This document shows, piece after piece, positions 24,654 through 37,341 of a stretch of 38,930 bases of DNA. The DNA is taken from positions 1 to 38,930 of IMG/VR virus record IMGVR_UViG_3300035670_000582. The stretch is one strand, 5' to 3'. The notes beneath the pieces are model-generated. The model worked only from the letters and a program-made list of their open reading frames with translations, did not search any database and was not told where the DNA came from. Position 1 is the first letter of the stretch, and each line of letters opens with the position of its first letter. This DNA comes from a virus. The position numbers were made by a program, and so were the translations under genes.

Positions 24654-26093
24654 TCAGGTGACGTTGAGCACGCGGCCGGAGTTGGCCGCGTCGATCAGGT
24701 CCGCGCCGACTCGCCAGTAGGCGAACCAACCGGCCTGCCCGGTGGGCCGACCGTTCGCGGTCGACTTCACCATCGGCTCGTACATGACGGTCATCCCCAC
24801 GCGGTCGACGATGACGTAGTTGCTCATGTCGACGTAGCCGAGGACGTAGTTCTCGGCCGTCCCGTTGATGACGCCATCCATGTCGGACGACTCGTAGATC
24901 GGCCGACCGAGCAGCGTCTCCGGCTGCGAGGCACCGAGGTTGGCCCAGAACGACGAGCCGCCGTAGGTGTCGAACTGCCGGATCTTCGCCATGATCGCCT
25001 GATTCGCGTACCACACGGCCTTCGAGCGGTGACGCGGGTTCACGGCCGTCTGCGTCGCGTAGACGTCGCCGACTGCGAAGGTGTCCGTCGCCGCCGAGGT
25101 CGTGATGGCGGAGCCGTCGATCAGCGAGTCGATGACGCCGTGCGGCTGACCGGAGCCGGTGCCGAGCGCGAAGGCGGTGCCTTCGAGCCGGTCCTTGGCG
25201 TCGCCGAGCAGCCGGGACACCTCGGAGGCGAAGCCGGAGTCGGCCAGCACCTCGTAGGAGCCGAACAGCCACGCGGCGGCCTTGTGCGCCGTGATGGACG
25301 GCTGCGCGAAGGTCGGCGTGTTGTCGCTGACCTCGGTGCCTTCCGCCAGCCACGCCGCCGTGACACCGGCCGACGTGACGCCGTTCCAGTCGTCCGTCGT
25401 GATCGTCTTCACGTTCGCCTGCGACCGGAACGGGTTCGCGGTGCCGGTGTTCGTGAGGATGATCGTCGGGTCGAGGGTGAACGGCACGAGGTAGCCACCG
25501 TTCGCCGCCGTAAGGCTCATCGCCGCACGGAAGGCCCGAGCCTCGTCGTCTTCCAGCAGCGCCGGGAACGAGGTCGGGTTGGCGATCAACTTCTCGAAGG
25601 CGGAGCGGTACGCCGGGCTGCCGGTGAGCAGCGCGTGACGGGCGATCGCCGGGCTGTCGTCGACCAGAGACAGGGCCTTGGCCCGCTCCGAGTCGCCGAA
25701 GTAGCCGGACTCGGGGATCGACTCGACGAACGAGACGGCCCGACGACGCATGTCGTCGCCGCCCATGAAGCCGCTGCGGACCGCCTCGATGACGTCAGCA
25801 GCGAACGGGTCGTCGGCCGGGCGACGCCCGCCGCCGACCGGGATGATCGAGCGGACGCCGGAGTCGGCACCACTCTCGGTCTCGCCCGCGACCTGCTGCG
25901 CGATGGCAGCAGAGCGGCGGGTCTCGAAGGTCTGGCCTTCCTCGACCTTGCGGGACACCTCGTCGAACTCGTCGAGCGCCGCGCGGGCGGACTCGATCTG
26001 CTCGTCAGTCGGCTCGTCGATCGAGTCGAACTCGGTCAACTGAGCGCGGAGGGACTCCTGCTTGGCGAGGAGGTCCGTCAGCCACTTGGGCAT
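24654..26093 (-). CDS. Major capsid protein (HK97 fold)
   Basis: 479 aa, with ATG at 26093 sharing one base with the protease stop (TGATG). Residues 1-75 form a charged coiled-coil delta/scaffold domain (LLAKQESLRAQLTEFDSIDE, ARAALDEFDEVSRKVEEGQT), normally removed by the prohead protease. The mature part shows HK97-family features: GGYLVPFTLDPTIILT, the E-loop/spine region (AWLAEGTEVSDNTPTFAQPS), AAWLFGSYEVLADSGF, GTGSGQPHGVIDSL, LLGRPIYESSDMDG and FAYWRVGADLIDA. It forms the icosahedral shell. The longer upstream frame is not used. Confidence 0.96.
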   Translation of the reverse strand: MPKWLTDLLAKQESLRAQLTEFDSIDEPTDEQIESARAALDEFDEVSRKVEEGQTFETRRSAAIAQQVAGETESGADSGVRSIIPVGGGRRPADDPFAADVIEAVRSGFMGGDDMRRRAVSFVESIPESGYFGDSERAKALSLVDDSPAIARHALLTGSPAYRSAFEKLIANPTSFPALLEDDEARAFRAAMSLTAANGGYLVPFTLDPTIILTNTGTANPFRSQANVKTITTDDWNGVTSAGVTAAWLAEGTEVSDNTPTFAQPSITAHKAAAWLFGSYEVLADSGFASEVSRLLGDAKDRLEGTAFALGTGSGQPHGVIDSLIDGSAITTSAATDTFAVGDVYATQTAVNPRHRSKAVWYANQAIMAKIRQFDTYGGSSFWANLGASQPETLLGRPIYESSDMDGVINGTAENYVLGYVDMSNYVIVDRVGMTVMYEPMVKSTANGRPTGQAGWFAYWRVGADLIDAANSGRVLNVT

Positions 26094-27415
26094 CAGACGA
26101 TTCCTCTCGAACGGAGTTGAGCGCGAAGCCGGACGGCTTCCGCGCGAAGCGACGAGTGCGACTGCGAGTCGCCGCCTACGGCGAGTCCCTCCTCGGGAGT
26201 GCCGTGAATCCCGAGGTAGTCGAGCGCCCGTCGGCGTTCGTCCTCGGGAAGCCTGTCGAAGATGGAGCGTACTCCGAGGATCCGCGCGTCCTTGTAGACC
26301 GGCGCGGGTGTCGGGCCGAACTCCTTCATGGCGACTTCGAGCCGCCGGACCCGGGTGAGGGAGCCATCGCTGCGGCGGTTCCACTTCGCCCCGAAGCGGG
26401 AGCGGCTCGGCTCGCTCTGGACGAAGCGGCCGGTGAACGACTGCCCCGTGACCTCACCGTTACGGATCGAGGCCAGCACCTCGGAGGCGTGGTCGCCGTC
26501 GTTGTAGAGGGCCGTGGTCAGGACACCCCGGCGGTCTTCCTTGACGTCGATCGCCCGGCCGATCGGGACAGCGAACCGCTCGCTCGGAGTCCCGTAGAGA
26601 GTGAGCGCGTGGTTGTAGTAGACGTTGAGCCCGGCGAAGTCGTTGCGACGGTGGTGCTCGATCGTCCGGCTGAACGAGCGGCGGTCGAGCACCTCCTCGT
26701 ACTCGCCGTCCTTGTCGACCACCGAGGCGGGCGTGTCGAAGACGGCGGCGTAGGCGGTGACCGTCCGGCCCTTCACTTCGAGGTCGTCAACTGCGAACGC
26801 CCGAACCCGGATATCGCCGCGCAAGATCTCGTCGAGATGGAAGGCTCGCGAGGAGTTCAGAGGAGCACCGACGACGTGAGGCTGAACGGTCTCGATGTTG
26901 AACCCGTGCCGCGCCTTGATCGACTCCTCCGCTTTCGCCGCCTCCGCCCCTTCCAGTTTCTTGCCGCCCATCATCTTATTGAACTCGGCCCCGCTGATCT
27001 CGGTGACCTTCGAGCCCTCCTGTACGAAGACTCGCTTCTCGGTGACGGCGAAGGTCTCACTTGGCCGAGTCAGCCCGCCCTCCTGATCGACCTTCATCGT
27101 CCGGCTAACGACAACGACGTCCTTCGTCGCGCCCTTGTAGGTGGCGACCTCGGCGCCGGGCTTCGACGCCGCGACCTTCGCCTCTCCGACGGGGGCGACC
27201 TTCGGCCCCCTCCCGTTCGGGCCGAAGCCGTGCGGACCGTAGTAGTTGCCGTCGGAGGCAGGCTGCGCGTGGAGCCGGGAACCGGGAGTCGCTATCTTGG
27301 CGGTCGCCTGCTTCACCCGCTCCATGTGCGCGCCACCGTAGGACGACCCGCTGCCACCGCCATCGCCGCCGTGCGACTTCTGATCGTGCTGCCCGTGCCG
27401 AAGTGAGTCGCTCAC
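26093..27415 (-). CDS. HK97-type prohead protease with long N-terminal extension and HDQKSHG motif
   Basis: The GTG at 27415 (VSDSLRHGQHDQKSHGGDGG) overlaps the previous stop as GTGA. The protease domain occupies about 195-375: AYAAVFDTPASVVDKDGEYE, YYNHALTLYGTPSERFAVPI with the catalytic His at about 269, and GEVTGQSFTGRF with Ser at about 326, as in HK97 gp4/U35 proteases. It should cleave the capsid delta domain and itself. The first 190 residues are extra: the HDQKSHG peptide (10-16), a Gly-rich stretch, and a region with VVVVSRTMKVDQEGG of unknown fold. 440 aa is about double the usual length. The C-terminus has LPEDERRRALDYLGIHGTPE. Confidence 0.93.
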   Translation of the reverse strand: MSDSLRHGQHDQKSHGGDGGGSGSSYGGAHMERVKQATAKIATPGSRLHAQPASDGNYYGPHGFGPNGRGPKVAPVGEAKVAASKPGAEVATYKGATKDVVVVSRTMKVDQEGGLTRPSETFAVTEKRVFVQEGSKVTEISGAEFNKMMGGKKLEGAEAAKAEESIKARHGFNIETVQPHVVGAPLNSSRAFHLDEILRGDIRVRAFAVDDLEVKGRTVTAYAAVFDTPASVVDKDGEYEEVLDRRSFSRTIEHHRRNDFAGLNVYYNHALTLYGTPSERFAVPIGRAIDVKEDRRGVLTTALYNDGDHASEVLASIRNGEVTGQSFTGRFVQSEPSRSRFGAKWNRRSDGSLTRVRRLEVAMKEFGPTPAPVYKDARILGVRSIFDRLPEDERRRALDYLGIHGTPEEGLAVGGDSQSHSSLRAEAVRLRAQLRSRGIV

Positions 27416-27567
27416 GCCTCGTCCTCCCGCCCCCCGGCGTCCTCGGCTTCGGTCGGCTCCATCGTATCGCCGTCGCCCTTCAATGCCCGGAACAGCGCCG
27501 TGATCTGATCGGAGTCCGGCGCGGCCCCCTCCTCGGCATGGCCGACGACCATGTACCGCCCGCTCAT
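27412..27567 (-). CDS. Small acidic protein (51 aa)
   Basis: The ATG at 27567 (MSGRYMVVGHAEEGAAPDSD) overlaps the preceding stop as ATGA. It is very acidic: QITALFRALKGDGDTMEPTE, ending AEDAGGREDEA. It is coupled to the protease start at 27415 (GTGA). It could be a small regulatory or structural peptide; no function recognised. The surrounding frame, longer upstream, is a shadow of the next gene. Confidence 0.68.
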   Translation of the reverse strand: MSGRYMVVGHAEEGAAPDSDQITALFRALKGDGDTMEPTEAEDAGGREDEA

Positions 27568-28145
27568 TCGCCTGTCCCTCCGAGTTGTACCTCGTGCTTG
27601 TGCGTCAGATCCCACGCGGCGATCTGATTCGCCTTCGCCTCGGAGTTGAGGGTACGGGCTGCTGCGACCGTCGTCGTCCTCACCGAGACGTCGAGGTAGA
27701 CGTGGCCCTCCTCCTCCCACGCCCCGATGTAGTGGTCCCGCTTCACGAGCAGGTCGGCGTTGCGGGCGGCGAACCGCTCGATGTCGGCCTCTTGAAGATC
27801 CTCCTTGCGGATCTTCGTCGTCCGCTTCGGGTACGGGCTGACCATGACCCCGGACTTCGGCGAGTGCGCGTCGACCGCGTGATACGAGAAGCCGCCCTCG
27901 CTGCGGACCTTGCCGACCAACTCCTCGGCGACCTGCTCGCCGATGTGCGCCGGGTCGCCGGAGCCGCCCTTGCGGCCGTGCGACTTCTGATCGTGCTGGC
28001 CGTGGCGCATCCCGAAGTCCGGCGTGGCGTAGTCGAGGTCGTCGACCGGCTCGGGGCCGGGATCGTAGGGCGTGTCGAGCCACTCCTGCGTCGGCTTCCA
28101 GTTCGGATCCGGCTTCCAGCCGGGCGGTGCGATCCTCGTGGTCAT
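27564..28145 (-). CDS. HDQKSHG-tagged protein of unknown function (193 aa)
   Basis: The ATG at 28145 (MTTRIAPPGWKPDPNWKPTQ) overlaps the previous stop and has GGGGGAAC upstream. A Pro/Trp/Asp-rich first 45 residues are followed by RHGQHDQKSHGRKGG (about 47-61) and a folded region of about 130 residues: GGFSYHAVDAHSPKSGVMVS, a helix, RDHYIGAWEEEGHVYLDVSV and NQIAAWDLTHKHEVQLGG. I associate this last pattern with phage proteins that accompany ART and ParB-like modules, without a known activity. It lies between the ART and protease genes. Confidence 0.76.
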   Translation of the reverse strand: MTTRIAPPGWKPDPNWKPTQEWLDTPYDPGPEPVDDLDYATPDFGMRHGQHDQKSHGRKGGSGDPAHIGEQVAEELVGKVRSEGGFSYHAVDAHSPKSGVMVSPYPKRTTKIRKEDLQEADIERFAARNADLLVKRDHYIGAWEEEGHVYLDVSVRTTTVAAARTLNSEAKANQIAAWDLTHKHEVQLGGTGE

Positions 28146-28321
28146 CGTTCCCCCTTCGGTGGCAGCGTAACGGCGGTCGGCTCTGCGAGCGCCTCGGCTC
28201 GTGGCATCCGACCCGCCTCCGAGGCGGGCTTGCCGAACCACTCCTCGGCCTCGGTCGACTCGCCGTTGACGTACTTGATCCAGTCGGATCCCGCCTTCGT
28301 GTCGAGCAGCACGCGCTTCAT
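28142..28321 (-). CDS. Small hypothetical protein (59 aa)
   Basis: I use ATG at 28321 (MKRVLLDTKAGSDWIKYVNG), with GGAG just upstream; a GTG four codons earlier (28333) is the alternative. It is a short basic strand followed by a helical segment (STEAEEWFGKPASEAGRMPR) and a Pro-rich end. It lies in the gap between the second ART and the 193-aa protein, with ATGA coupling to the latter. No function recognised. Confidence 0.66.
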   Translation of the reverse strand: MKRVLLDTKAGSDWIKYVNGESTEAEEWFGKPASEAGRMPRAEALAEPTAVTLPPKGER

Positions 28322-28334
28322 CGGCTCCGCCACC

Positions 28335-29564
28335 TCACACTCCCACGTTGACACTCTGCGGCCCGGGCTCGCCATAGGAACCGCCCCAGATCTCCGAGAA
28401 CGCCGTGTCCCAATCGGGCTCTCCCGCATCGGCGTAGGTCACCGTCGCCTGGACGGACGGCCCGATGACGACGACCTCGTTCTCCCCGTAGCAGCCCGGG
28501 CCGGTCGCGGCGGCGGAGAAGATCTGGGACCGAGGAACGTCGGCCTCGATCACGACCTTCGTCACGCCGGATCCAACGTCCGGGTCGTCGCCGAACTGCG
28601 ACGCAATCCCGCGAGAAGTCGAGAACGACGACGCCGGTCGCAACTCCCCCTGGAACCGGGTGCCCTGCCGGTAACCGTAGTTGTCTACGACGGTCATCCC
28701 CCGGTGGACGGTGATGAGGTCGCCCTTGCCGATGCCTGCGGCTTCGAGGGTCGACTGAGTGCGCCGGTAGGTCGTCTGAACGTAGCCGTCGAGCGCCCGG
28801 GTATGGCTGCCGTAGAACGAAGTGCCGATGGAGCCGTCGAACATGCCGTCGGCGTCCATCGTGTCCCCGACGTTGAAGTTGGCGCGGATCGCCTCTTGGA
28901 GCCCGAGTGACAGCGGGTTCGAGTCGTTCGAGGTGGACGCCCAAGTGTGCGTCAACTGCGAGGCGGCGTAGAAGCGGGTCGCCGACTCCGCCGACTTCTC
29001 CCCCACCGAGAACGCACCGACGGGGCGGTCCGTCTCGTAGCCGATCCGCAGCGTGAGGTCGCCCCTCCGGTTGCCCTCGTCGACCCACTCGTCGAACGAC
29101 TTCTTCCCGCCCTCGTACTCGGCGTCCTCGTCCCAGATTGCTCCGTTGCGGTAAAGGGTCTGCGTCAACTTGTAGCGAGCGGTGCCGGACGTCAGTTCTC
29201 CCTTCACGATGCCGACGCCCTGGCCCTCGATGAGCAGATCGACGTCGCGGTCGCCGGTCGCATCGCGGACGAGATCGTTCAAGTCCCAGATCGGAACCGC
29301 CGCCATGTCGTCGGCCACGTCCCGGGCAACGCGGTCCTTCAAGGTCTCGCGGAAGTTGTCGTAGGTCGGCCCCTCCCGCCGGGCCACCGTCTCCCTCGCG
29401 ACTTCCTCGTCCGCCAGATAGGCGGTTCTGCCGTCATCTCCCCATGCCGTGACGTCGCCGACGGAGGCTGCGAAGTCGGCGGCGGGCATGGGGCCGCCTG
29501 CGCCCTTGCGGCCGTGCGACTTCTGATCGTGCTGTCCGCCGAGATGGCGGAGGGAGTCGCTCAT
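28335..29564 (-). CDS. ADP-ribosyltransferase-domain virion protein (R-S-E class)
   Basis: It would transfer ADP-ribose from NAD to host targets. The ATG at 29564 (MSDSLRHLGGQHDQKSHGRK) overlaps the previous stop as ATGA. After the HDQKSHG tag there is a long region of about 200 residues (EVARETVARREGPTYDNFRE; KGELTSGTARYKLTQTLYRN), then the catalytic domain: VHRGMTV with Arg288, ASSFSTSRGIASQF (S-T-S), and GENEVVVIGP with Glu361-x-Glu363, matching R-S-E ARTs. 409 aa. Its C-terminal domain resembles the ART module of the neighbouring 1277-aa protein, so they are paralogues. Target specificity cannot be read. T4 Alt and ModA are the known phage precedents for injected or early ARTs. Confidence 0.86.
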   Translation of the reverse strand: MSDSLRHLGGQHDQKSHGRKGAGGPMPAADFAASVGDVTAWGDDGRTAYLADEEVARETVARREGPTYDNFRETLKDRVARDVADDMAAVPIWDLNDLVRDATGDRDVDLLIEGQGVGIVKGELTSGTARYKLTQTLYRNGAIWDEDAEYEGGKKSFDEWVDEGNRRGDLTLRIGYETDRPVGAFSVGEKSAESATRFYAASQLTHTWASTSNDSNPLSLGLQEAIRANFNVGDTMDADGMFDGSIGTSFYGSHTRALDGYVQTTYRRTQSTLEAAGIGKGDLITVHRGMTVVDNYGYRQGTRFQGELRPASSFSTSRGIASQFGDDPDVGSGVTKVVIEADVPRSQIFSAAATGPGCYGENEVVVIGPSVQATVTYADAGEPDWDTAFSEIWGGSYGEPGPQSVNVGV

Positions 29565-32500
29565 CCGAACGCCTCCCGCCACTCCTGCTGATCGTCCGTC
29601 ATCGCCCAAGTGTCCTCCTCGCCGATCTCGCCCCGCTTGAACGCGGCGTCGAGGATCTCCTCGGTCATCGACCCGGCCTCCATCTCGGAGTACCACTGTC
29701 CCGGCCCCTGCTGCGCCCACGCGGAGGCAGGCGGCCCCATCATGCCGACCATCGTCGTGTCCGGGTCTCCGGCCTCGGCGTAGCGCTCTTTCAGCAGGTT
29801 CTCGCCGCCGCCGCCGTTCCGCTGCTCCTGGCGGTAGGACTCTGCGAGCACCATGCCGTAGATGCGGGCCGAGCGGACCGTCGGCCCCTCGAAGTCGCCG
29901 TTGAACGCCTCGAAGTCGTGGCCGTACTCGCTCGACGGATCGAAGGCGTCCCGCAGTCTGCGCCCGGCGGACTCCTCCGTCCAGAGCCGGGAGTTGTAGA
30001 CGATGCCGGTGTCGTCGGCCATCGCGAGCCGGGGCTTGTCGTCGACATGGAGGAGCGGCGCGAAGTCGACTCGCCCGGGCGCTTCGGCCATAAGCCCCCC
30101 GTAGGGGGAGACGCCGTACTTCTGGCCGTTCGGGTTCCTCGCGAGCAGATCGACGTCCCGCAGCATCTCGACCTGCTTGTCCTTCGGGATCGTCGGGTCG
30201 AAGTGGACCCGCAGCCCGCCGTTGACGAGGACTTCGCCGTAGTCGTCGGTCGTCTTGTGCCACACGCCGGGCTTGTAGCCGAAGTCGTTCCCCGGCCCCC
30301 ACACCTCCGGTTCGAGGTAGACCGCCGAGTAGGTGCCCTGCTGCGCCACCGACGCTGCGGAGATCAGCGCGTCGCCCGCGTACTCCGGCGAGCCGCTGTC
30401 GCCCCCTGCGCCCTTCCGGCCGTGCGACTTCTGATCGTGCTGGCCGGGCTGATGCCGCTTCGCCTCCTCGACGCTGCGGAGCCAGTCGGCGTTGTCGCCG
30501 TCGTCGATGATGACCTCGTAGTTGTCCATCGTCAGCCAGGTCGCCCGGAGTCCCTCCCCGTAGAGTTCATCGAAGTCCAGTTGTGCGTCGAAGATGGCGC
30601 GGACCTGCGGCCCAAGGACGACGACCTCGGACTCCCGCAGGCACCCGATCCCGATGCCGGGCACAGAGAAGATCTGCTCGACCGGAACTCGGGCGGTGAT
30701 GACTCGGCCGTCGCTACCATTCGCGAACGACTGCGCCATCTCCGGGTTCGTCGAGAACGACGACAGCGGCCGGAGATGTGCGACCCGATCAGCACCGTCG
30801 CTCGGGAAGTCGCCGTGGACCCCCCGATAGAGCGTGATCTCGCCCTCGATGCCGCTCTCGCGGAGGAACTCCTGCGTCCGGTCGTACTGCGAGCGGACAA
30901 CGCCGTCCCAGAAGTCGTCGTCGCCGATGAGCCTGTCTGGCGGAGTGTAGGTGTAGGACTGCCCCCAATCGTCAGGGATCAGCGTCCGCTCGGCCGCTGC
31001 CATCATGGACCGTGCGCCGTTCGTGTAGGTGCTCCCCGCCCACTCGCGGATCATGCCGGAGGCTGCGGCGTCGAGCAGCACCTTCCGCCCGGCAGGAGTC
31101 CCGGCGAGGGCGAACGTCGACTCGGGCCACTTCCCGGTCTCCCGCGCCAGGATCGAGGCGATCTCCTTCGCGCCAGCGCCCCGCTCGATCGCGGCGTAGG
31201 CGTCGAAGGAGACGTCGGCGACCGACCAGACGTTGAGGTTGCCGTTCGGCCCCCACTCGTAGACGGCGGCGTCGGCGTATCCGGCGTCCTTCGGGTAGGT
31301 GATCTGCGGCAAGTCGTCGCGGAGCGTGACGTCGCGGTCGACGTACTCGCGCTCGATCGCCGCCTTGATGAGATCGTCGCCCTTGCCCTGCCGCTCCATG
31401 TCGTCGGCGAGGTCGCGAGCAGCCTTCCGCTTCAAGGCGTGGTCGAGCGCCTCCCCCTCGAAGCCCCCGTCGACCGGGCCGTAGATCCGCGCCGCCTGCG
31501 TCTGAGCGAACTGCGTCACCCGGTCGCGCATCCGATCGAGCATCTGCTTGGCGGCCGACTGCTTCGACCCCTTGGCCCCGCCGCCCTGCGGCCGACCGTG
31601 TTTCTTCTGATCGTGGAGCCCGGTCATGTGCCGACGAACTCCGGCGAGGACGGCGCTGCGGGCCGCGAGATCCCCGCCGAGGGCCAGGGCGAGCAGCAGC
31701 ATCCGGTTCCGCCGAACGATGTCCGGGCTCGCGAGCGCCTGCCGGACTCCCTCCTCGACCTCGGCCGGGGCGGTCCCCATCGCGACAGCGGAGAACGCAT
31801 CGGCGAACGCCTCGACCGGGCTCCGCTGCCCGTAGCCGGTGGAGACGTAGGAGGCCGGGGTCCGGGTGAACTCGGCCGTCATCGGCCAGCCGGTCGGGTT
31901 GCGGAAGACCGCGTTGAGGTCGCTGCCGACGCCTGTCCCTTGCTGACCGGAGGACTTGTCGACAGCGTGCGCCCACTCATGCGCGACCGTCGCCTCGACG
32001 AGCCCGGCGCTCGTCTTCGAGCGGAGCGGGTAGTGGAAGCCGTTCGCGTGCGCCTCCGCCGAGCCGTCGTGCGTGTAGGTGCCGGACCGCGACAGATCCC
32101 GGTTGACGGAGACCCGGATGTCGCCCGCCTCGCTAGCAGTCGTGCGACCGCAGACGCCTTCCGACAGCGCCGAGGAGACGGAGAGGCCGACCCGGGTGTT
32201 CTTCGGAATGTCGGCGACCGCCCGGCCCCGGTCGATGCCGGAGACGACGCCCTCCTTCATGGCGCGGTCGGTGTCCTTCGGGAACAGGACGACGATCTCG
32301 CGCCCGTCGGCGTCGCGGTAGACCATGCCGCCGTCGAGGCGTCCGGCCTGCCGCTCGGCGGCGTAGAGGTTGGCGAGCGCCGTCGGCTGATCCAAGTCCT
32401 CGACCCGCGCCAGCGACGCCTTGTCCTTGAAGCCGAGCCCGTAGAGAGCGACCCCCTGCGGCGTCATGTTCGTCCAGCCCTCGGCTGCGGCCCATGCCTG

Positions 32501-33394
32501 CTGCGGCTGCGACAGCGCCGAGGATGCGGGGCCGGAGCCGCCCTTCCGGCCGTGGGCCTTCTGATCGTGCTGGCCGCCGAGGTGGCGGGAGGAGTCGCCC
32601 GCGATGGCGGCAAGGACGGCCTTCGCGACCTTCGGCTTCACCGTGCCGTAGACCGAGCCCGCGTAGGCATCGGCGAACGCCTCGTCCGGGCTGCGCTGCC
32701 CGTAGCCGGACGTGAACTCGTCCATGAGATGAACCCCGGCGTAGGGGTCCTTCATCGCGACGTAGCGGGCTCTGACGTCCCGGGCGAAGCCGCGCGCAAC
32801 GTCAGCCCTGCCGGTGTCGCCTCCGGCCCCCGCAACGACATGGCCGAACTCGTGGGCGGTGACAAGGCGAACGATGCCGGAGGGCGACTCCTCCGGCGGG
32901 CGGAAGTGAAAGCCGCTCTGACTGTCCCGCAGGACTCCCTTGTAGAGATCGGAGTCCGGGTCGCCGAGGTCGCGGGAGACCTCGATCGTCCACCCGATCT
33001 TCGACTCCCCGCCGACGAAGATGATCCCGTCCACCGTCAACCCCGGAATCCCCGACCCCGACGTCTTCACGAAGACGTCGGTGCCCTCCGGTACGTCGGC
33101 GAACCGACGGGCGTCGCTAATCCCGTCGAGGATCCCCTGCCGGATCTCCGGGCTGTCGGTGGAGTTGAAGGCCGCCCGGATCCGCGTCTCGCCGGGGCCG
33201 GTCATCGTGAAGGTCAGCCCGTCGGGGGAGCCCTCCCACGTCGGCCCGCCCCCCTTGCGCCCGTGCGACTTCTGATCGTGCTGGCCGCCGAGGTGACGAC
33301 GAACTCCGGCGGCGACCTCGGCCTGCGCGGTCGCGCTGCCAGCAGCCGCCAGACTCAGCAGCGCGAGCCGGTCATCCCTCGTCGAGCCACGCAC
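29561..33394 (-). CDS. Multi-module 'polyvalent' protein: two zinc-peptidase modules, an ART, and an unknown module
   Basis: 1277 aa from GTG at 33394, overlapping the portal by 23 nt. Four HDQKSHG-type motifs (about residues 39, 276, 594, 986) divide it. Module 1 has HEFGH at 181-185 and GYGQRSPDEAFADAYA; module 2 has HEWAH at 472-476 and GYGQRSPVEAFADAFS. These are HExxH zincin patterns with a likely third Glu ligand, so two duplicated metallopeptidases. Module 3 (600-975) is an R-S-E ART: TLYRGVHGDF (Arg857), SSFSTNPEMA, RESEVVVLG (Glu921, Glu923). Module 4 (990-1277) is unknown (VYLEPEVWGPGNDFGYKPGV). The N-terminal 35 residues are Ala-rich. Large fusions of such domains are known as phage polyvalent proteins. 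Injection into the host is inferred. Confidence 0.85.
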   Translation of the reverse strand: MRGSTRDDRLALLSLAAAGSATAQAEVAAGVRRHLGGQHDQKSHGRKGGGPTWEGSPDGLTFTMTGPGETRIRAAFNSTDSPEIRQGILDGISDARRFADVPEGTDVFVKTSGSGIPGLTVDGIIFVGGESKIGWTIEVSRDLGDPDSDLYKGVLRDSQSGFHFRPPEESPSGIVRLVTAHEFGHVVAGAGGDTGRADVARGFARDVRARYVAMKDPYAGVHLMDEFTSGYGQRSPDEAFADAYAGSVYGTVKPKVAKAVLAAIAGDSSRHLGGQHDQKAHGRKGGSGPASSALSQPQQAWAAAEGWTNMTPQGVALYGLGFKDKASLARVEDLDQPTALANLYAAERQAGRLDGGMVYRDADGREIVVLFPKDTDRAMKEGVVSGIDRGRAVADIPKNTRVGLSVSSALSEGVCGRTTASEAGDIRVSVNRDLSRSGTYTHDGSAEAHANGFHYPLRSKTSAGLVEATVAHEWAHAVDKSSGQQGTGVGSDLNAVFRNPTGWPMTAEFTRTPASYVSTGYGQRSPVEAFADAFSAVAMGTAPAEVEEGVRQALASPDIVRRNRMLLLALALGGDLAARSAVLAGVRRHMTGLHDQKKHGRPQGGGAKGSKQSAAKQMLDRMRDRVTQFAQTQAARIYGPVDGGFEGEALDHALKRKAARDLADDMERQGKGDDLIKAAIEREYVDRDVTLRDDLPQITYPKDAGYADAAVYEWGPNGNLNVWSVADVSFDAYAAIERGAGAKEIASILARETGKWPESTFALAGTPAGRKVLLDAAASGMIREWAGSTYTNGARSMMAAAERTLIPDDWGQSYTYTPPDRLIGDDDFWDGVVRSQYDRTQEFLRESGIEGEITLYRGVHGDFPSDGADRVAHLRPLSSFSTNPEMAQSFANGSDGRVITARVPVEQIFSVPGIGIGCLRESEVVVLGPQVRAIFDAQLDFDELYGEGLRATWLTMDNYEVIIDDGDNADWLRSVEEAKRHQPGQHDQKSHGRKGAGGDSGSPEYAGDALISAASVAQQGTYSAVYLEPEVWGPGNDFGYKPGVWHKTTDDYGEVLVNGGLRVHFDPTIPKDKQVEMLRDVDLLARNPNGQKYGVSPYGGLMAEAPGRVDFAPLLHVDDKPRLAMADDTGIVYNSRLWTEESAGRRLRDAFDPSSEYGHDFEAFNGDFEGPTVRSARIYGMVLAESYRQEQRNGGGGENLLKERYAEAGDPDTTMVGMMGPPASAWAQQGPGQWYSEMEAGSMTEEILDAAFKRGEIGEEDTWAMTDDQQEWREAFG

Positions 33395-35606
33395 GAACCG
33401 CCTCCATCACGTCGAGCAGCGGCAGCGAGCGCCCGTCCTTGTTGAAGACGGACGCCTGCGGAATCCCCATCTCGGCGGCGAACTCGTTGCTCTCCCGCAG
33501 CAGCGTCGTGATGTCGGCGTCGAGTCGGCGGACCGGCATGGAGACGTCGCCGATCTTGCCGTCGTCGAGGTCGACGGCGACCTTCGCCGCCCATCGGTGG
33601 TGCCCGTCCACGACGTAGTTGTCGCGGCTGACGAAGATCGGGGAGTCGGCGATCTTGCCCTCGCGCATCGCCTGAGCGATGCCGACGACCTTGCCCCCGG
33701 CGATCTCCGACTGCGACGCCTTCAAGTAGGACGCCTGCTCGGTCGTCTCCTCCATCGCGACGCCCCTGCTCCGCATCCTCTCGATGAACGCCGGACCGAG
33801 GTCGACCTCGCCCTTGGCGTTCTTCGGCAGCCGGTCGGCCGGTGAGCCCGGCAGCGGCTTGCCGGACAACTGCGGCATCTCGGCCCGGGGAATCCCCTTG
33901 TTCTGCGAGCAGAACAGGTTGGTCCCCTTCAAGGACGCCCGGCAGAGGTCGATGTTCGGCTTGTCCTTGCCCGCCGCCTCCGCCTCGTCGACCTGCTTCT
34001 TGATCTCCGACAGGACGGTGCCCGCCTGCCTCGGCGACAGGAACTCGACGTACTGCCCGTCGGCGAGTGCCTGCTGCGCGACCAAGATGTCGCCGGTGAT
34101 GAGCGGGTCGTCCTTCGTGCCCGAGCCGGTCGTCTTCGCCTTGCCCCCGGCGTGCGCTTTCTGCTCGTGCTTGCCCGCGAGGTGCCGGGCGGACTCGTCG
34201 GCGTCCGGGCCGCAGCCGACGCACCCGCCGGTCTTCGAGCGGATCGGCTGCGGGGCGGCTGCGCCCTGACCGCCGACCGTCTTCGGCTTGCCTTGGAGCG
34301 CGTCACCGCCGCCGGGAACTCCCGAGCCGCCGCCCTCGGCCTTCGCCGCCGGGTCGTAGAGCGACGTCGGCGCGAGCCCGGTGTGCTCCAACTTGGACAG
34401 GTCGGCGGCGTCCACCGCGTCGGCCACCGTCTCGTGCTTGTACCCGGAGCGGAGCAGTTCGCCCGCCGTCACGGCCTTCAACCGGAACGTCTCGGCCCGG
34501 TCCTTCGCCGAGTCCCGCAGCGCGGAGATGTCGGAGGCGTCGAGGATCAGCCGCTTGCCCTGCGGGATCTCGGTGACCGTCGACAGCGCCGAGGCGGCCG
34601 ACCGCCACAGCGGCTTCATCGTCAGGTCGGCGAACCGGCGCATCCCGGTCTCGAAGTTCGAGTAGGTCGCCGCTTGGAGCCCCTCGCGGAAGCCGACGAT
34701 GATCGGAGGAACTCCGGCCGCGCTCGCGAGCCGGTTCTCCGTCGCAGCCGAGACGGCGGTGAAGGCCATGTCGTTGAACGACGAGCCGACGACCGTCATG
34801 TCGCCACCGGCGTCGAGGACGACCGTCTTGTAGGCGTTGTCGATGCCGCCGTAGCGGGCGGTGAGCATGTCGCTGATCTCGTCGCGCTTCGGCTTGCCGA
34901 GCGGCTGCGCGTACTTGACGATCATGTTCGGCGTCGCGGCGTGCTCGTAGAACTTGTTTTGATACGTCGTCATCGCCAGGTCGGCGCGGATCTCCCGGGC
35001 GACCGGCGTCAGCCAGGTCATTCCCCGGAACGAGGCCAGCGGGTCCGGCAGCGGAGCCCAATGCGCCACCTCGTCGGCGTCGTAGAGCACCGGCTCCAAC
35101 TTGTCGCCGCCGTAGGAGTAGAGGTAGCCGAGCGGCTCCCGCCACTTCCGGCCCTTGGAGTCGGAGTGCTCGACCGACACGATGTCGACCCAATCGGGCC
35201 GCAGCCGGGTCAGGCCGCCGTCGGCCGTCCGGGCGATGAAGGCGTTCCCGGCGAGGTCGACATCCATGAGCATCCGGGCGAGCAGTTCGCCGGAGTGGCC
35301 TCCCGGCCACGGCACGTCGAGCGACTCGACGCGGCCCTTGTCGGCGCGGTTGCTCTCGTCGTCGAACAGTCGAGGCACCGCCTCGCTGAATAGCAGCAGC
35401 CGGGCGGAGATCAGCGCGAAGACCGGGCCGGAGTTGGCGGCGACGGTGCCGAACTCGTTCAGCGTCGGCAGGACGGGCTCGGAGTCGCCCATGCCGTAGG
35501 TCGACGAGAAGACCATCGCGCCGGAGAGGTCGTATTCGCTCTGCGGGATGACTGCCGCCCGCTCGACGAACCCGAGCGTCTCGCCGAGCGTTCGGAGTAG
35601 AGCCAT
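33372..35606 (-). CDS. Portal protein fused to a ParB-like domain
   Basis: 744 aa; the portal part covers about 1-440 (MDVDLAGNAFIARTADGGLT, VAREIRADLAMTTYQNKFYE, AATPNMIVKYAQPLG, SAAGVPPIIVGFREGLQAAT) as in HK97-family portals, which form the 12-subunit DNA gate. A Gly-rich linker with CVGCG leads to KHEQKAHA at about 480. The C-terminal 250 residues are an extra domain: GTNLFCSQNKGIPRAEMPQL, ASYLKASQSEIAGGKVVGIA and FVSRDNYVVDGHHRWAAKVA (DGHHR at about 667-671), a ParB/sulfiredoxin-type motif found in phage polyvalent proteins. The ATG at 35606 has CTAGGGAG 6 nt upstream. The extra domain would be present in about 12 copies per virion, or released by proteolysis. Confidence 0.92.
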   Translation of the reverse strand: MALLRTLGETLGFVERAAVIPQSEYDLSGAMVFSSTYGMGDSEPVLPTLNEFGTVAANSGPVFALISARLLLFSEAVPRLFDDESNRADKGRVESLDVPWPGGHSGELLARMLMDVDLAGNAFIARTADGGLTRLRPDWVDIVSVEHSDSKGRKWREPLGYLYSYGGDKLEPVLYDADEVAHWAPLPDPLASFRGMTWLTPVAREIRADLAMTTYQNKFYEHAATPNMIVKYAQPLGKPKRDEISDMLTARYGGIDNAYKTVVLDAGGDMTVVGSSFNDMAFTAVSAATENRLASAAGVPPIIVGFREGLQAATYSNFETGMRRFADLTMKPLWRSAASALSTVTEIPQGKRLILDASDISALRDSAKDRAETFRLKAVTAGELLRSGYKHETVADAVDAADLSKLEHTGLAPTSLYDPAAKAEGGGSGVPGGGDALQGKPKTVGGQGAAAPQPIRSKTGGCVGCGPDADESARHLAGKHEQKAHAGGKAKTTGSGTKDDPLITGDILVAQQALADGQYVEFLSPRQAGTVLSEIKKQVDEAEAAGKDKPNIDLCRASLKGTNLFCSQNKGIPRAEMPQLSGKPLPGSPADRLPKNAKGEVDLGPAFIERMRSRGVAMEETTEQASYLKASQSEIAGGKVVGIAQAMREGKIADSPIFVSRDNYVVDGHHRWAAKVAVDLDDGKIGDVSMPVRRLDADITTLLRESNEFAAEMGIPQASVFNKDGRSLPLLDVMEAVRAWLDEG

Positions 35607-35612
35607 GCGTCC

Positions 35613-35620
35613 CTCCCTAG
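35613..35620 (-). promoter_or_regulatory. CTAGGGAG start-associated element before the portal gene
   Basis: An exact copy, 6 nt from the portal ATG at 35606. The TAG within it is also the stop codon of the large terminase. Confidence 0.6.
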
Positions 35621-37341
35621 ACGAGTGTGATCGAAGGACCGCTGCCCGGCTCGGCGATCATCGCCCTGTCGAGCGCCATGATAAGGGCGACCACTCCGTC
35701 GATCCGGTCAGCGGCGCGGGTCTTCGCAGGCTTGACGTTGCCCTCCCCGTCCAACTGGACGGCGAAGTTGTCCGCGTTCCACCTCGCGACCGGGTGACCG
35801 CCGTGCCGCAGCAGCGGGGCGTCCGGGCGGCTTCCCCGTAGCAGCCGGGCCAGTTCCCGGGTCGCGTCGTTCATCGCGACGGTGCTCTGCGGCTTCAAGA
35901 CGACCGGCAGCCCCTCGTTGCCGAGTTGGACGGCCAACTGCGTCGCGTTCCAGCGGTCGATCCCGATGCCCCCGACGACGAAGTGCTCGGCGTCGCGCAT
36001 GACGTCGGCCTTGATGAAGTCGTAGTCGCTGACGTTGCCGGGCGTGACGGTGAGGAAGCCCTGCGACGCCCAGACGTCGGCGGCCCCGTGCGTCCGCTTC
36101 GAGAGGTCGGCCATCCCCTCCTCCGGCATGTAGAACCGCCAGACGACATCGAAGCCGCCACGGTGAGTGTCGGGGAGCGCCCACGCCACGGCACACAGGT
36201 CATGCGTGTTCGCCAGGTCGATCCCGCCGTAGGCCACCCGCCCGGCCAGGTCGTCCCACTCCGGCGGGATCCCGGCGCACGAGTCCCAATCGGCCATATC
36301 GAGGAAGCGGACGTCCTGCTTCGTCCTGACGTTGAGGTGGAGCCGCAGGAACTTGGACAGTTCCGCCGGGCTCTGCTGCGCCTCCGACGACGCCGACCTC
36401 ATGTAAGCCCGGGTCGGCGCGATCGGGTAGCCGGGATTCGCCTTCGCCCACGTCGACTCGTCGAACGGGTCGTCGCCCTCCTCGGCGTACCAGATCGCGC
36501 CGTACTGCGTGAGGTCGCGGATCGACCCGTTCGCGACCTGCTCGACGTAGCGGTGGCGGCGGTCGTAGATCGTCTCGTGCCGGGAGTCGTCGGCCGTCGT
36601 GATGATGAAGATGAGCGGCTGCCGCCGAGCGCCGGTGCCGGTCTCGATCGCCTCGACGAGATCCGGCGTCTTGTGGACGTGAAGTTCGTCGACCAAAGCG
36701 CCGTGAAGGTTCGCGCCGTGCTGCGCCTCCGCCGACGAGGAAACGACCTCGATGTACGAGGACGACCGGAGGTGGACGACCCGCTGCTTGAAGACCCGGA
36801 CGTGCGGCTTCAACGACGGCGACTCGGTGGACAACTTGCGGATCGGGTCGAAGGCGAAGCGGGCTTGCTTCTCGCCGGTCGCCGCACAGACGACCTGCGC
36901 CCCCATCTCACCGTCGGCGAAGGCGAGGTAGAGGAGGATGCCCCCGGCCATCGTCGTCTTGCCGTTCTTGCGCGGCACCTCGACATACGCCTTGCGGAAG
37001 ACCCTGACCAACTCGCCGCTGTCGCCCGGCTGCTTCCAGCCGAAGATCGGCGCGATGACGTAGGCGACCTGCCACGGGTCGGGGTCGAGCGGGCGGCCGT
37101 ACCACTCGCCCTGCGTGTGCCGCAGCCGGTGGAACGTGCCGAGCACCCGGTCGACCGCCTCGGCGTCGAAGACGGCTCCGCGATCCGTCGGCTCCGGCGT
37201 CTTGATCTGCGGCGGCGACGTCGGCGGGTCGAAGCCCCTCGACTCCATGTACCACGCGACCTCGGGCGACACCTTCAAGGCGTCGATGTCGACCCCGGCC
37301 CACGCGCTCCTAGCCGAACGGGTTGTCGTCGTCGGGCTCAT
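35617..37341 (-). CDS. terL: Terminase large subunit
   Basis: 574 aa: the ATP-driven motor and nuclease that packages DNA through the portal. The ATPase has EVPRKNGKTTMAGG (Walker A, 122-130), GALVDELH (Walker B, Asp218-Glu219) and IFIITTADDSR (motif III-like). The nuclease half has VAYGGIDLANTHDLCAVAWA (first acidic residue near 375), followed by GGIGIDRWNATQLAVQLGNE and, at the end, KTRAADRIDGVVALIMALDR. The ATG at 37341 overlaps the small subunit by 32 nt; no better start is obvious. The gene follows the P27-type small subunit, as usual. Confidence 0.96.
   Translation of the reverse strand: MSPTTTTRSARSAWAGVDIDALKVSPEVAWYMESRGFDPPTSPPQIKTPEPTDRGAVFDAEAVDRVLGTFHRLRHTQGEWYGRPLDPDPWQVAYVIAPIFGWKQPGDSGELVRVFRKAYVEVPRKNGKTTMAGGILLYLAFADGEMGAQVVCAATGEKQARFAFDPIRKLSTESPSLKPHVRVFKQRVVHLRSSSYIEVVSSSAEAQHGANLHGALVDELHVHKTPDLVEAIETGTGARRQPLIFIITTADDSRHETIYDRRHRYVEQVANGSIRDLTQYGAIWYAEEGDDPFDESTWAKANPGYPIAPTRAYMRSASSEAQQSPAELSKFLRLHLNVRTKQDVRFLDMADWDSCAGIPPEWDDLAGRVAYGGIDLANTHDLCAVAWALPDTHRGGFDVVWRFYMPEEGMADLSKRTHGAADVWASQGFLTVTPGNVSDYDFIKADVMRDAEHFVVGGIGIDRWNATQLAVQLGNEGLPVVLKPQSTVAMNDATRELARLLRGSRPDAPLLRHGGHPVARWNADNFAVQLDGEGNVKPAKTRAADRIDGVVALIMALDRAMIAEPGSGPSITLV

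Follow-up and report, generated by a model that had tools for sequence, protein, structure and literature searches.

The window analysed here covers the 38,930 bases of a virus record from a metagenome (IMGVR_UViG_3300035670_000582), whose head-gene region contains eight copies of a short peptide element, H[D/E]QK[S/A/K]H[G/A], referred to below as the HDQ tag. All eight copies lie on the minus strand, in five head-region genes, and the motif is found nowhere else in the record. Read along that strand, the genes run from the large subunit of the terminase through the portal protein, a protein of 1277 amino acids (aa), a putative ADP-ribosyltransferase (ART2) and a 193-aa protein to an S78-family prohead protease and an HK97-type capsid protein. 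The genes and the tag copies are as follows.

35617..37341, minus strand: terminase large subunit (TerL), solid family match, no tag
33372..35606, minus strand: portal protein, 744 aa, made up of a core, a tag at residue 479 and an extra C-terminal module (Pfam PF04860, E=1.3e-34; phrog_12, phrog_2859, phrog_1033)
34149..34169, minus strand: tag 1, HEQKAHA, a degenerate copy at the border of the portal core and the extra module
29561..33394, minus strand: 1277-aa polyprotein, [tag-zincin1]-[tag-zincin2]-[tag-ART1]-[tag-unknown module] (from translation, motifs and module homology)
33260..33280, minus strand: tag 2, HDQKSHG, residue 38 of the 1277-aa protein, before zincin1
32549..32569, minus strand: tag 3, HDQKAHG, residue 275 of the 1277-aa protein, before zincin2
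31595..31615, minus strand: tag 4, HDQKKHG, residue 593 of the 1277-aa protein, before ART1
30419..30439, minus strand: tag 5, HDQKSHG, residue 985 of the 1277-aa protein, before the last module
28335..29570, minus strand: ART2, about 411 aa, tag at residue 13, putative ADP-ribosyltransferase domain from about residue 190
29511..29531, minus strand: tag 6, HDQKSHG, N-terminal in ART2
27564..28145, minus strand: 193-aa protein, with a leader of about 50 aa, a tag and a compact domain (phrog_3170-related)
27975..27995, minus strand: tag 7, HDQKSHG, in the 193-aa protein
26093..27415, minus strand: prohead (maturation) protease, S78 family, tag at residue 9 (Pfam PF04586, E=3.5e-10; phrog_80)
27368..27388, minus strand: tag 8, HDQKSHG, N-terminal in the prohead protease
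24654..26096, minus strand: major capsid protein, HK97 fold, no tag, a negative control inside the head region (Pfam PF05065, E=4.3e-41)

The initial annotation had reported eight copies of the motif in five head-region proteins, and all eight were located, on a single strand. Its account of their placement needs some amendment. The N-terminal position that it gave for three proteins holds for the protease and ART2, but in the 193-aa protein the tag lies about 50 residues into the chain. The 1277-aa protein does have tags at its module borders, although these are better described as four tags, one in front of each of four modules, than as a tag between every module. The copy between the portal core and its extra domain is present, in degenerate form. 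When the motif was looked for in the terminase large subunit and the capsid protein of the window, neither was found to have it.

The family assignments of the terminase, the PF04860 portal, the PF04586 protease and the PF05065 capsid protein are solid. The two zincin modules of the 1277-aa protein are homologous to each other (E=1.8e-17) and carry the motifs HEFGH and HEWAH. These tandem zincin-like metallopeptidase modules occupy residues 46-593 (window 31616-33257) and are possibly injected proteases. The ART1 module of the same protein is homologous to ART2. Because both give only weak matches to the Pfam DRAT family (E=0.0034-0.01, under the Pfam cut-off), their identity rests on an R-S-E pattern and on Foldseek. 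In an alignment of 30 homologues the R and E are invariant and the S is present in at least 90%, while the best Foldseek match of ART2 is the Vis ART toxin (probability 0.93-0.95), at an E of 3.7e-3 that does not fall below 1e-3. Signature and predicted fold together assign ART1 and ART2 to the ADP-ribosyltransferases. The extra module of the portal protein (residues 487-744; 33372-34146) includes a ParB-like stretch, VDGHHRWAA, matches phrog_2859 and has relatives in many phages. The compact domain of the 193-aa protein (residues 66-189) is found in at least 58 places and is predicted with high confidence; compared with the PDB, it has no significant relative either by sequence or by fold.

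The HDQ tag is not peculiar to this record. A search of the viral collection with a degenerate DNA pattern gave 91 stretches, and a second scan, for the HDQSTHG form, gave at least 120, with up to 13 tag copies in 14.5 kb at the densest locus. Among the matches listed there are at least 413 tags in at least 255 non-redundant proteins from at least 195 loci; these loci were recruited with the tag as seed and are not independent samples, many are short contigs, and the clusters are single-linkage ones. The recurrence is not due to chance. In open reading frames (ORFs) of at least 120 aa from the fetched loci, the core pattern gives 694 matches, compared with 4 in shuffled proteins. For 35 whole virus records, a looser DNA pattern gives about 130 matches and the reversed pattern none, and a score matrix run on their proteins finds 138 sites, against 1 in shuffled proteins. 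The matches in these whole records form a single cluster on a single strand in each, with one exception. Two cellular records also carry tags that look real by their context, an actinobacterial contig from a metagenome-assembled genome (L111) and Sphaerisporangium album (L114, NZ_QOIL01000003.1), where the locus is probably a provirus and encodes a protein that recurs in the viral contig L045; the other stretches of the genome-contig scan, which gave 17 in total, were judged by context to be chance matches.

The initial annotation mentioned similar peptides in other actinophage head proteins, and for this we found no confirmation. The HDQ tag is absent from the regions read in isolates that encode homologous MuF, protease, ART or other effector domains (ValentiniPuff, RDJL2, Salgado, Ottawa, SP-15, REQ1, DSL-LC01, Phrappuccino, Mannheimia 1152AP2, prophiGD02-2, phiGT1, Tunturi_5 and vir555). 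A tblastn search of isolate phages with a 20-aa motif gave no match, the query probably being too short for that statistic, and an exact 20-mer scan gave none. Pfam, PHROG and NCBIfam scans of selected proteins show no family match over the tag, and the PDB holds no sequence similar to the tag peptide. We have found a matching element described nowhere in these family libraries or in the open-access papers searched, though subscription journals may hold a prior description.

Across these loci the tag has the consensus [K/R]H-x2 or x4-HDQ[K/S][T/S]HG[N/S/R][W/R][A/K], and its conserved information spans only some 17 residues (-6 to +12). Conservation reaches at least 96% at each of the core positions H0, D1, Q2, H5 and G6, and position +8 is usually W or R. 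Of 395 distinct tags, 363 have the upstream histidine at -3 or -5, and two have it at -4. A very common form ends in HGNWA or HGSWA and is non-basic, and some lineages have basic flanks (HGRRK). A 2100-aa protein (L030 / G013) has degenerate tags (GGTDDQSSHGNWA), in which the first core histidine has become aspartate, three times beside a normal tag.

The position of the tag is as regular as its sequence. Of the 231 ORFs with a complete 5' end, 150 have their first tag no more than 70 aa from the start; of the 228 with a complete end, only 4 have their last tag that close to the C-terminus. Consecutive tags are 115-810 residues apart (median 238), that is, with spacings of at least 115 aa, about one tag per domain. 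An ORF may have up to 5 tags, and internal tags make up 255 of the 405 scored, with a core score close to that of the N-terminal ones (25.0 compared with 25.7). Around N-terminal tags, both the leader before and the sequence after are close to background, implying that the tag is the only shared N-terminal signal. When the 193-aa protein was modelled by AlphaFold2 with 12 relatives, its domain scored 94-98 in the predicted local distance difference test (pLDDT), against about 40 in the region of the tag; in ART2 it is about 90 for the ART domain, with low confidence from the tag onward until the domain begins. On these predictions the tag is a linear motif in a disordered segment, not a fold.

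The proteins that carry the tag belong to a recognisable gene context. Upstream of the first tag, sequences match families of portal, MuF and head-morphogenesis proteins. Those after tags match ART-PolyVal, DRAT, ADPrib_exo_Tox, zeta toxin/AAA_33, GNAT, NUDIX, PARP, topoisomerase IB, Alt-like ART and kinase-like domains as well as unknown families, the matches being weak for several modules. Genes adjoining the tag clusters encode portal, TerL, maturation protease and head-morphogenesis proteins, and distant genes of the same records have replication and miscellaneous functions; among untagged neighbours, MuF (104 loci) and a phrog_113 portal (75 loci) are the most frequent. Over hundreds of phage loci the motif is confined to head-associated and probably head-packaged proteins. 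The ART1, ART2, 193-aa and portal-extra modules all have homologues directly after tags in other contigs, and for the 193-aa domain a tag lies upstream in 52 of 58 homologues. In a typical relative (L271), with modules named from translation motifs, MuF is followed in order by [tag-zincin-tag-GNAT-tag-ART-tag-module], [tag-module-tag-module] and [tag-ART]; its polyprotein opens with an HEWGH module similar to the window zincins.

Effector domains combined in one polypeptide are known from the polyvalent proteins (Iyer et al. 2017, PMC5512222), and effectors are joined to head proteins in the MuF toxins (Jamet et al. 2017, PMC5576092). The tagged proteins resemble these polyvalent and MuF- or portal-fused virion effectors in having several effector domains, fusion to portal or MuF, and a location near head genes. 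The 1277-aa protein combines two zincin-like modules, an ART and another module, and tagged proteins are encoded beside, or fused to, portal, MuF or packaging genes. Gene context and domain type suggest that the tagged proteins are likewise 'polyvalent' effectors present in the virion. The available parts of the two papers contain no description that we found of a tag or linker motif.

Some homologues of the 193-aa domain have no HDQ tag and carry other short peptides at the same place. Three further elements, FNPNHDxxGRF[A/T/S] (NPxHD), GSGNFGHxGRPGxxGGS (GRPG) and PRxPxGxPxGGQ[W/F] (GGQW), occur at the same kind of module border and can be regarded as dialects of the tag. The GRPG dialect was found in 98 stretches, with up to 8 copies in one protein. 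Loci with these three alternative peptides are L374-L470 (for example L421, L411, L434 and L457) and L357-L373 (for example L365 and L371). Homologous modules stand behind different dialects in 395 HDQ/GRPG pairs, with E down to 1.9e-88, and in 128 HDQ/NPxHD pairs. The 193-aa domain is preceded by HDQ in 47 cases, GRPG in 4, NPxHD in 1 and GGQW in 1; for the portal-extra module the corresponding counts are 21, 4, 1 and 2. Loci with at least two tags almost always keep to a single dialect (128 of 136 for HDQ, 43 of 46 for GRPG), and mixing with GGQW is common at NPxHD loci (5 of 7). A 983-aa protein (L014) and a 1009-aa protein (L095) have two dialects at successive borders.

The same exchange is seen within one clade, in which the terminases of HDQ and GRPG members are 68% identical. 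The protease of G011 has HDQ tags on both sides of its catalytic domain and its homologue in G054 has GRPG-type tags on both sides, with capsid proteins that are 66% identical; the capsid protein of a third member, G033, shares 93% identity with the one in G011 (HDQ) and 68% with the one in G054 (GRPG). On these comparisons, dialects swap between homologous head proteins, and two can coexist. Capsid replacement was considered as the cause of the dialect difference between G011 and its GRPG relatives and was dropped, the capsids being 66-93% identical. The annotated capsid maturation protease of the Actinomycetia phage DSL-LC01 (L182, about 20.2 kb) has the peptide QPRDAKGQF about 30 residues into its frame; this is perhaps a fifth tag type.

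Why should one short peptide stand in front of so many unrelated modules? The reading that we favour, to which we give an even chance of being correct, is that the HDQKSHG peptide acts as a short linear tag that labels cargo for loading into the prohead. The tag would lie in a flexible stretch N-terminal to every module destined for the head interior, whether a stand-alone effector, a module of a polyprotein, a module fused behind portal, MuF or prohead protease or, as in the window, the protease itself. During prohead assembly a partner on the inside of the prohead, which may be the scaffold or the capsid delta domain, the portal or MuF protein, or the protease, would bind the tag, and diverse enzymes would in this way be taken into the head, to leave it afterwards together with the DNA. 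Presence of the tagged modules in the virion, a causal role of the tag in loading and the identity of the partner are inferences. The initial annotation had likened the element to a tag, and it behaves as one: it is short, disordered, conserved at the peptide level and placed at module borders. Among the three roles offered there, the best fit is packing or docking; processing is possible, and the metal-dependent version of docking is disfavoured as a common mechanism. With rather less confidence, somewhat short of even, we suggest that tailed phages may use interchangeable short address tags (about 11-20 residues, in at least four unrelated dialects) to load many injected enzymes, that incoming effector cassettes tend to be rewritten into the dialect of the recipient, and that the inside of the prohead provides the partner as one of its conserved features.

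Several observations weigh against loading by such a tag. Conservation of the tag core is partly a matter of data selection, because most loci were recruited with the tag as seed. Tags also lie within polypeptides for which portal or MuF already provides an anchor, and a signal for loading would seem superfluous there. Finally, G033 has both dialects in one protein and an untagged protease; since it mixes dialects despite 93% capsid identity to G011, a strict dialect-specific reader on the capsid is unlikely.

The nearest known parallel is in phage T4. Its diverse internal proteins are placed in the prohead core by a common capsid-targeting sequence (CTS) (PMC3012670), of which the first ten residues suffice, and the propeptide of the protease is suspected of the same targeting (PMC9026906). 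The likeness to the CTS, carried by IPI-III and suspected in the gp21 protease propeptides, is that of a short N-terminal peptide on otherwise unrelated and, here, probably head-packaged effectors and possibly on the prohead protease too; the tag precedes many unrelated effector families, which gene context would place in the virion. By this analogy, the N-terminal tag on the window protease fits a T4-like picture. The differences are nevertheless considerable. The CTS is a removable propeptide at the extreme N-terminus, one per protein, whereas the tag is repeated for each module (up to 5 per ORF, mostly internal), stands behind portal, MuF and protease, and exists in several dialects; no resemblance between the two sequences was seen. 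By its sequence, its placement and the lack of L/I-x-E in its conserved columns, the tag falls outside the CTS class of T4. Encapsulin cargo-loading peptides offer an analogy, being short and disordered and directing cargo into an HK97-fold shell, but they are usually C-terminal and serve cellular compartments. The DarA protein of phage P1 is an antirestriction protein that is packaged in the head and has its N-terminus dealt with in the prohead; it differs in having a folded hexon-binding region and a cleaved N-terminus of about 70 residues, with no repeated short tag (PMC12810830).

DarA also bears on the main rival explanation, that the tag is a processing site at or next to which the prohead protease or another protease cuts, freeing the modules inside the prohead from portal, MuF, protease and one another as small ejectable pieces. 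Tags at every polyprotein border and behind portal, MuF and protease would suit such a role, as would their predicted disorder and the maturation-protease-like protein encoded near many tag clusters, and the prohead protease makes N-terminal cuts in both DarA and the T4 internal proteins. The T4 site, however, is simply L/I-x-E (PMC9026906), and the conserved stretch of the tag, about 11-20 residues per dialect, exceeds any such known prohead protease site; L/I-x-E itself was looked for in tag columns -6 to +12 and was not found. A prohead cleavage site should be shared with the maturation site of the capsid protein, yet the window capsid, the main substrate of the protease, has no tag-like site. 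Stand-alone genes with a leader of only 9-26 residues would gain little from cleavage, and no known protease family is common to all tagged phages, S78 being found in 5 of 77 records, many of which are fragments. We regard processing as unlikely, though a serious competitor to cargo loading.

Less probable still, and in our judgement rather doubtful, is that the tag acts not in loading but as a metal-binding clip (H..HD...H), a segment that contacts DNA, or a signal used after ejection for unfolding, release or binding of a host factor. The three conserved histidines and the aspartate would be consistent with a clip, the basic flanks (HGRRK) of some lineages with such roles more generally, and the spacing of the upstream histidine, 3 or 5 and almost never 4, suggests a structured bound state. 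Against this, the very common HGNWA/HGSWA form is non-basic, and the other dialects that precede homologous modules contain hardly any histidine or none and have no basic flank in common. Since the same modules carry histidine-poor or histidine-free tags, metal binding is a poor candidate for a common mechanism.

There remains the question of whether selection acts on the peptide or on the DNA that encodes it. Between tag copies within a genome, codon changes are mostly silent (silent to amino-acid differences of 191:63, 139:44, 103:7 and 52:29 in the better-sampled genomes), which argues that the peptide is under selection. The window is an exception. Its tag copies are nearly identical as DNA, with CACGATCAGAAG in seven of the eight, and the tag aspartate is encoded by GAT although the same genes use GAC in preference (277:44). 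The leader MSDSLRH before the tag is common to the prohead protease and ART2 (27368-29564). Near identity of the copies, with GAT and the shared leader, points to a recent duplication or conversion of tag DNA in this lineage, so that the tag, together with the leader in the protease and ART2, has probably been copied recently as DNA. The remaining explanation, that the repeats serve chiefly for recombination or as cassette borders, their DNA spreading with the effector modules and aiding their shuffling and the peptide having no role, would suit these window copies and the shuffling of modules among contexts, but it is very improbable because tag copies elsewhere show silent codon differences, the DNA varying at synonymous sites in most other genomes while the peptide is kept, and kept across very different phages.

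To our knowledge, the way in which proteins are selected for packaging and injection in phages other than T4 is largely unknown, and the injected effectors of most environmental phages are not recognisable from sequence. If the tag is a common label, any tagged protein would become a predicted virion effector, including many domains of unknown function. The dialects, with their natural swaps in homologous head proteins, would then amount to a testable code, for which the mixed proteins of L014 and L095 are natural test cases of interchangeability, and the tag could supply short loading peptides with which chosen proteins might be placed in phage heads.

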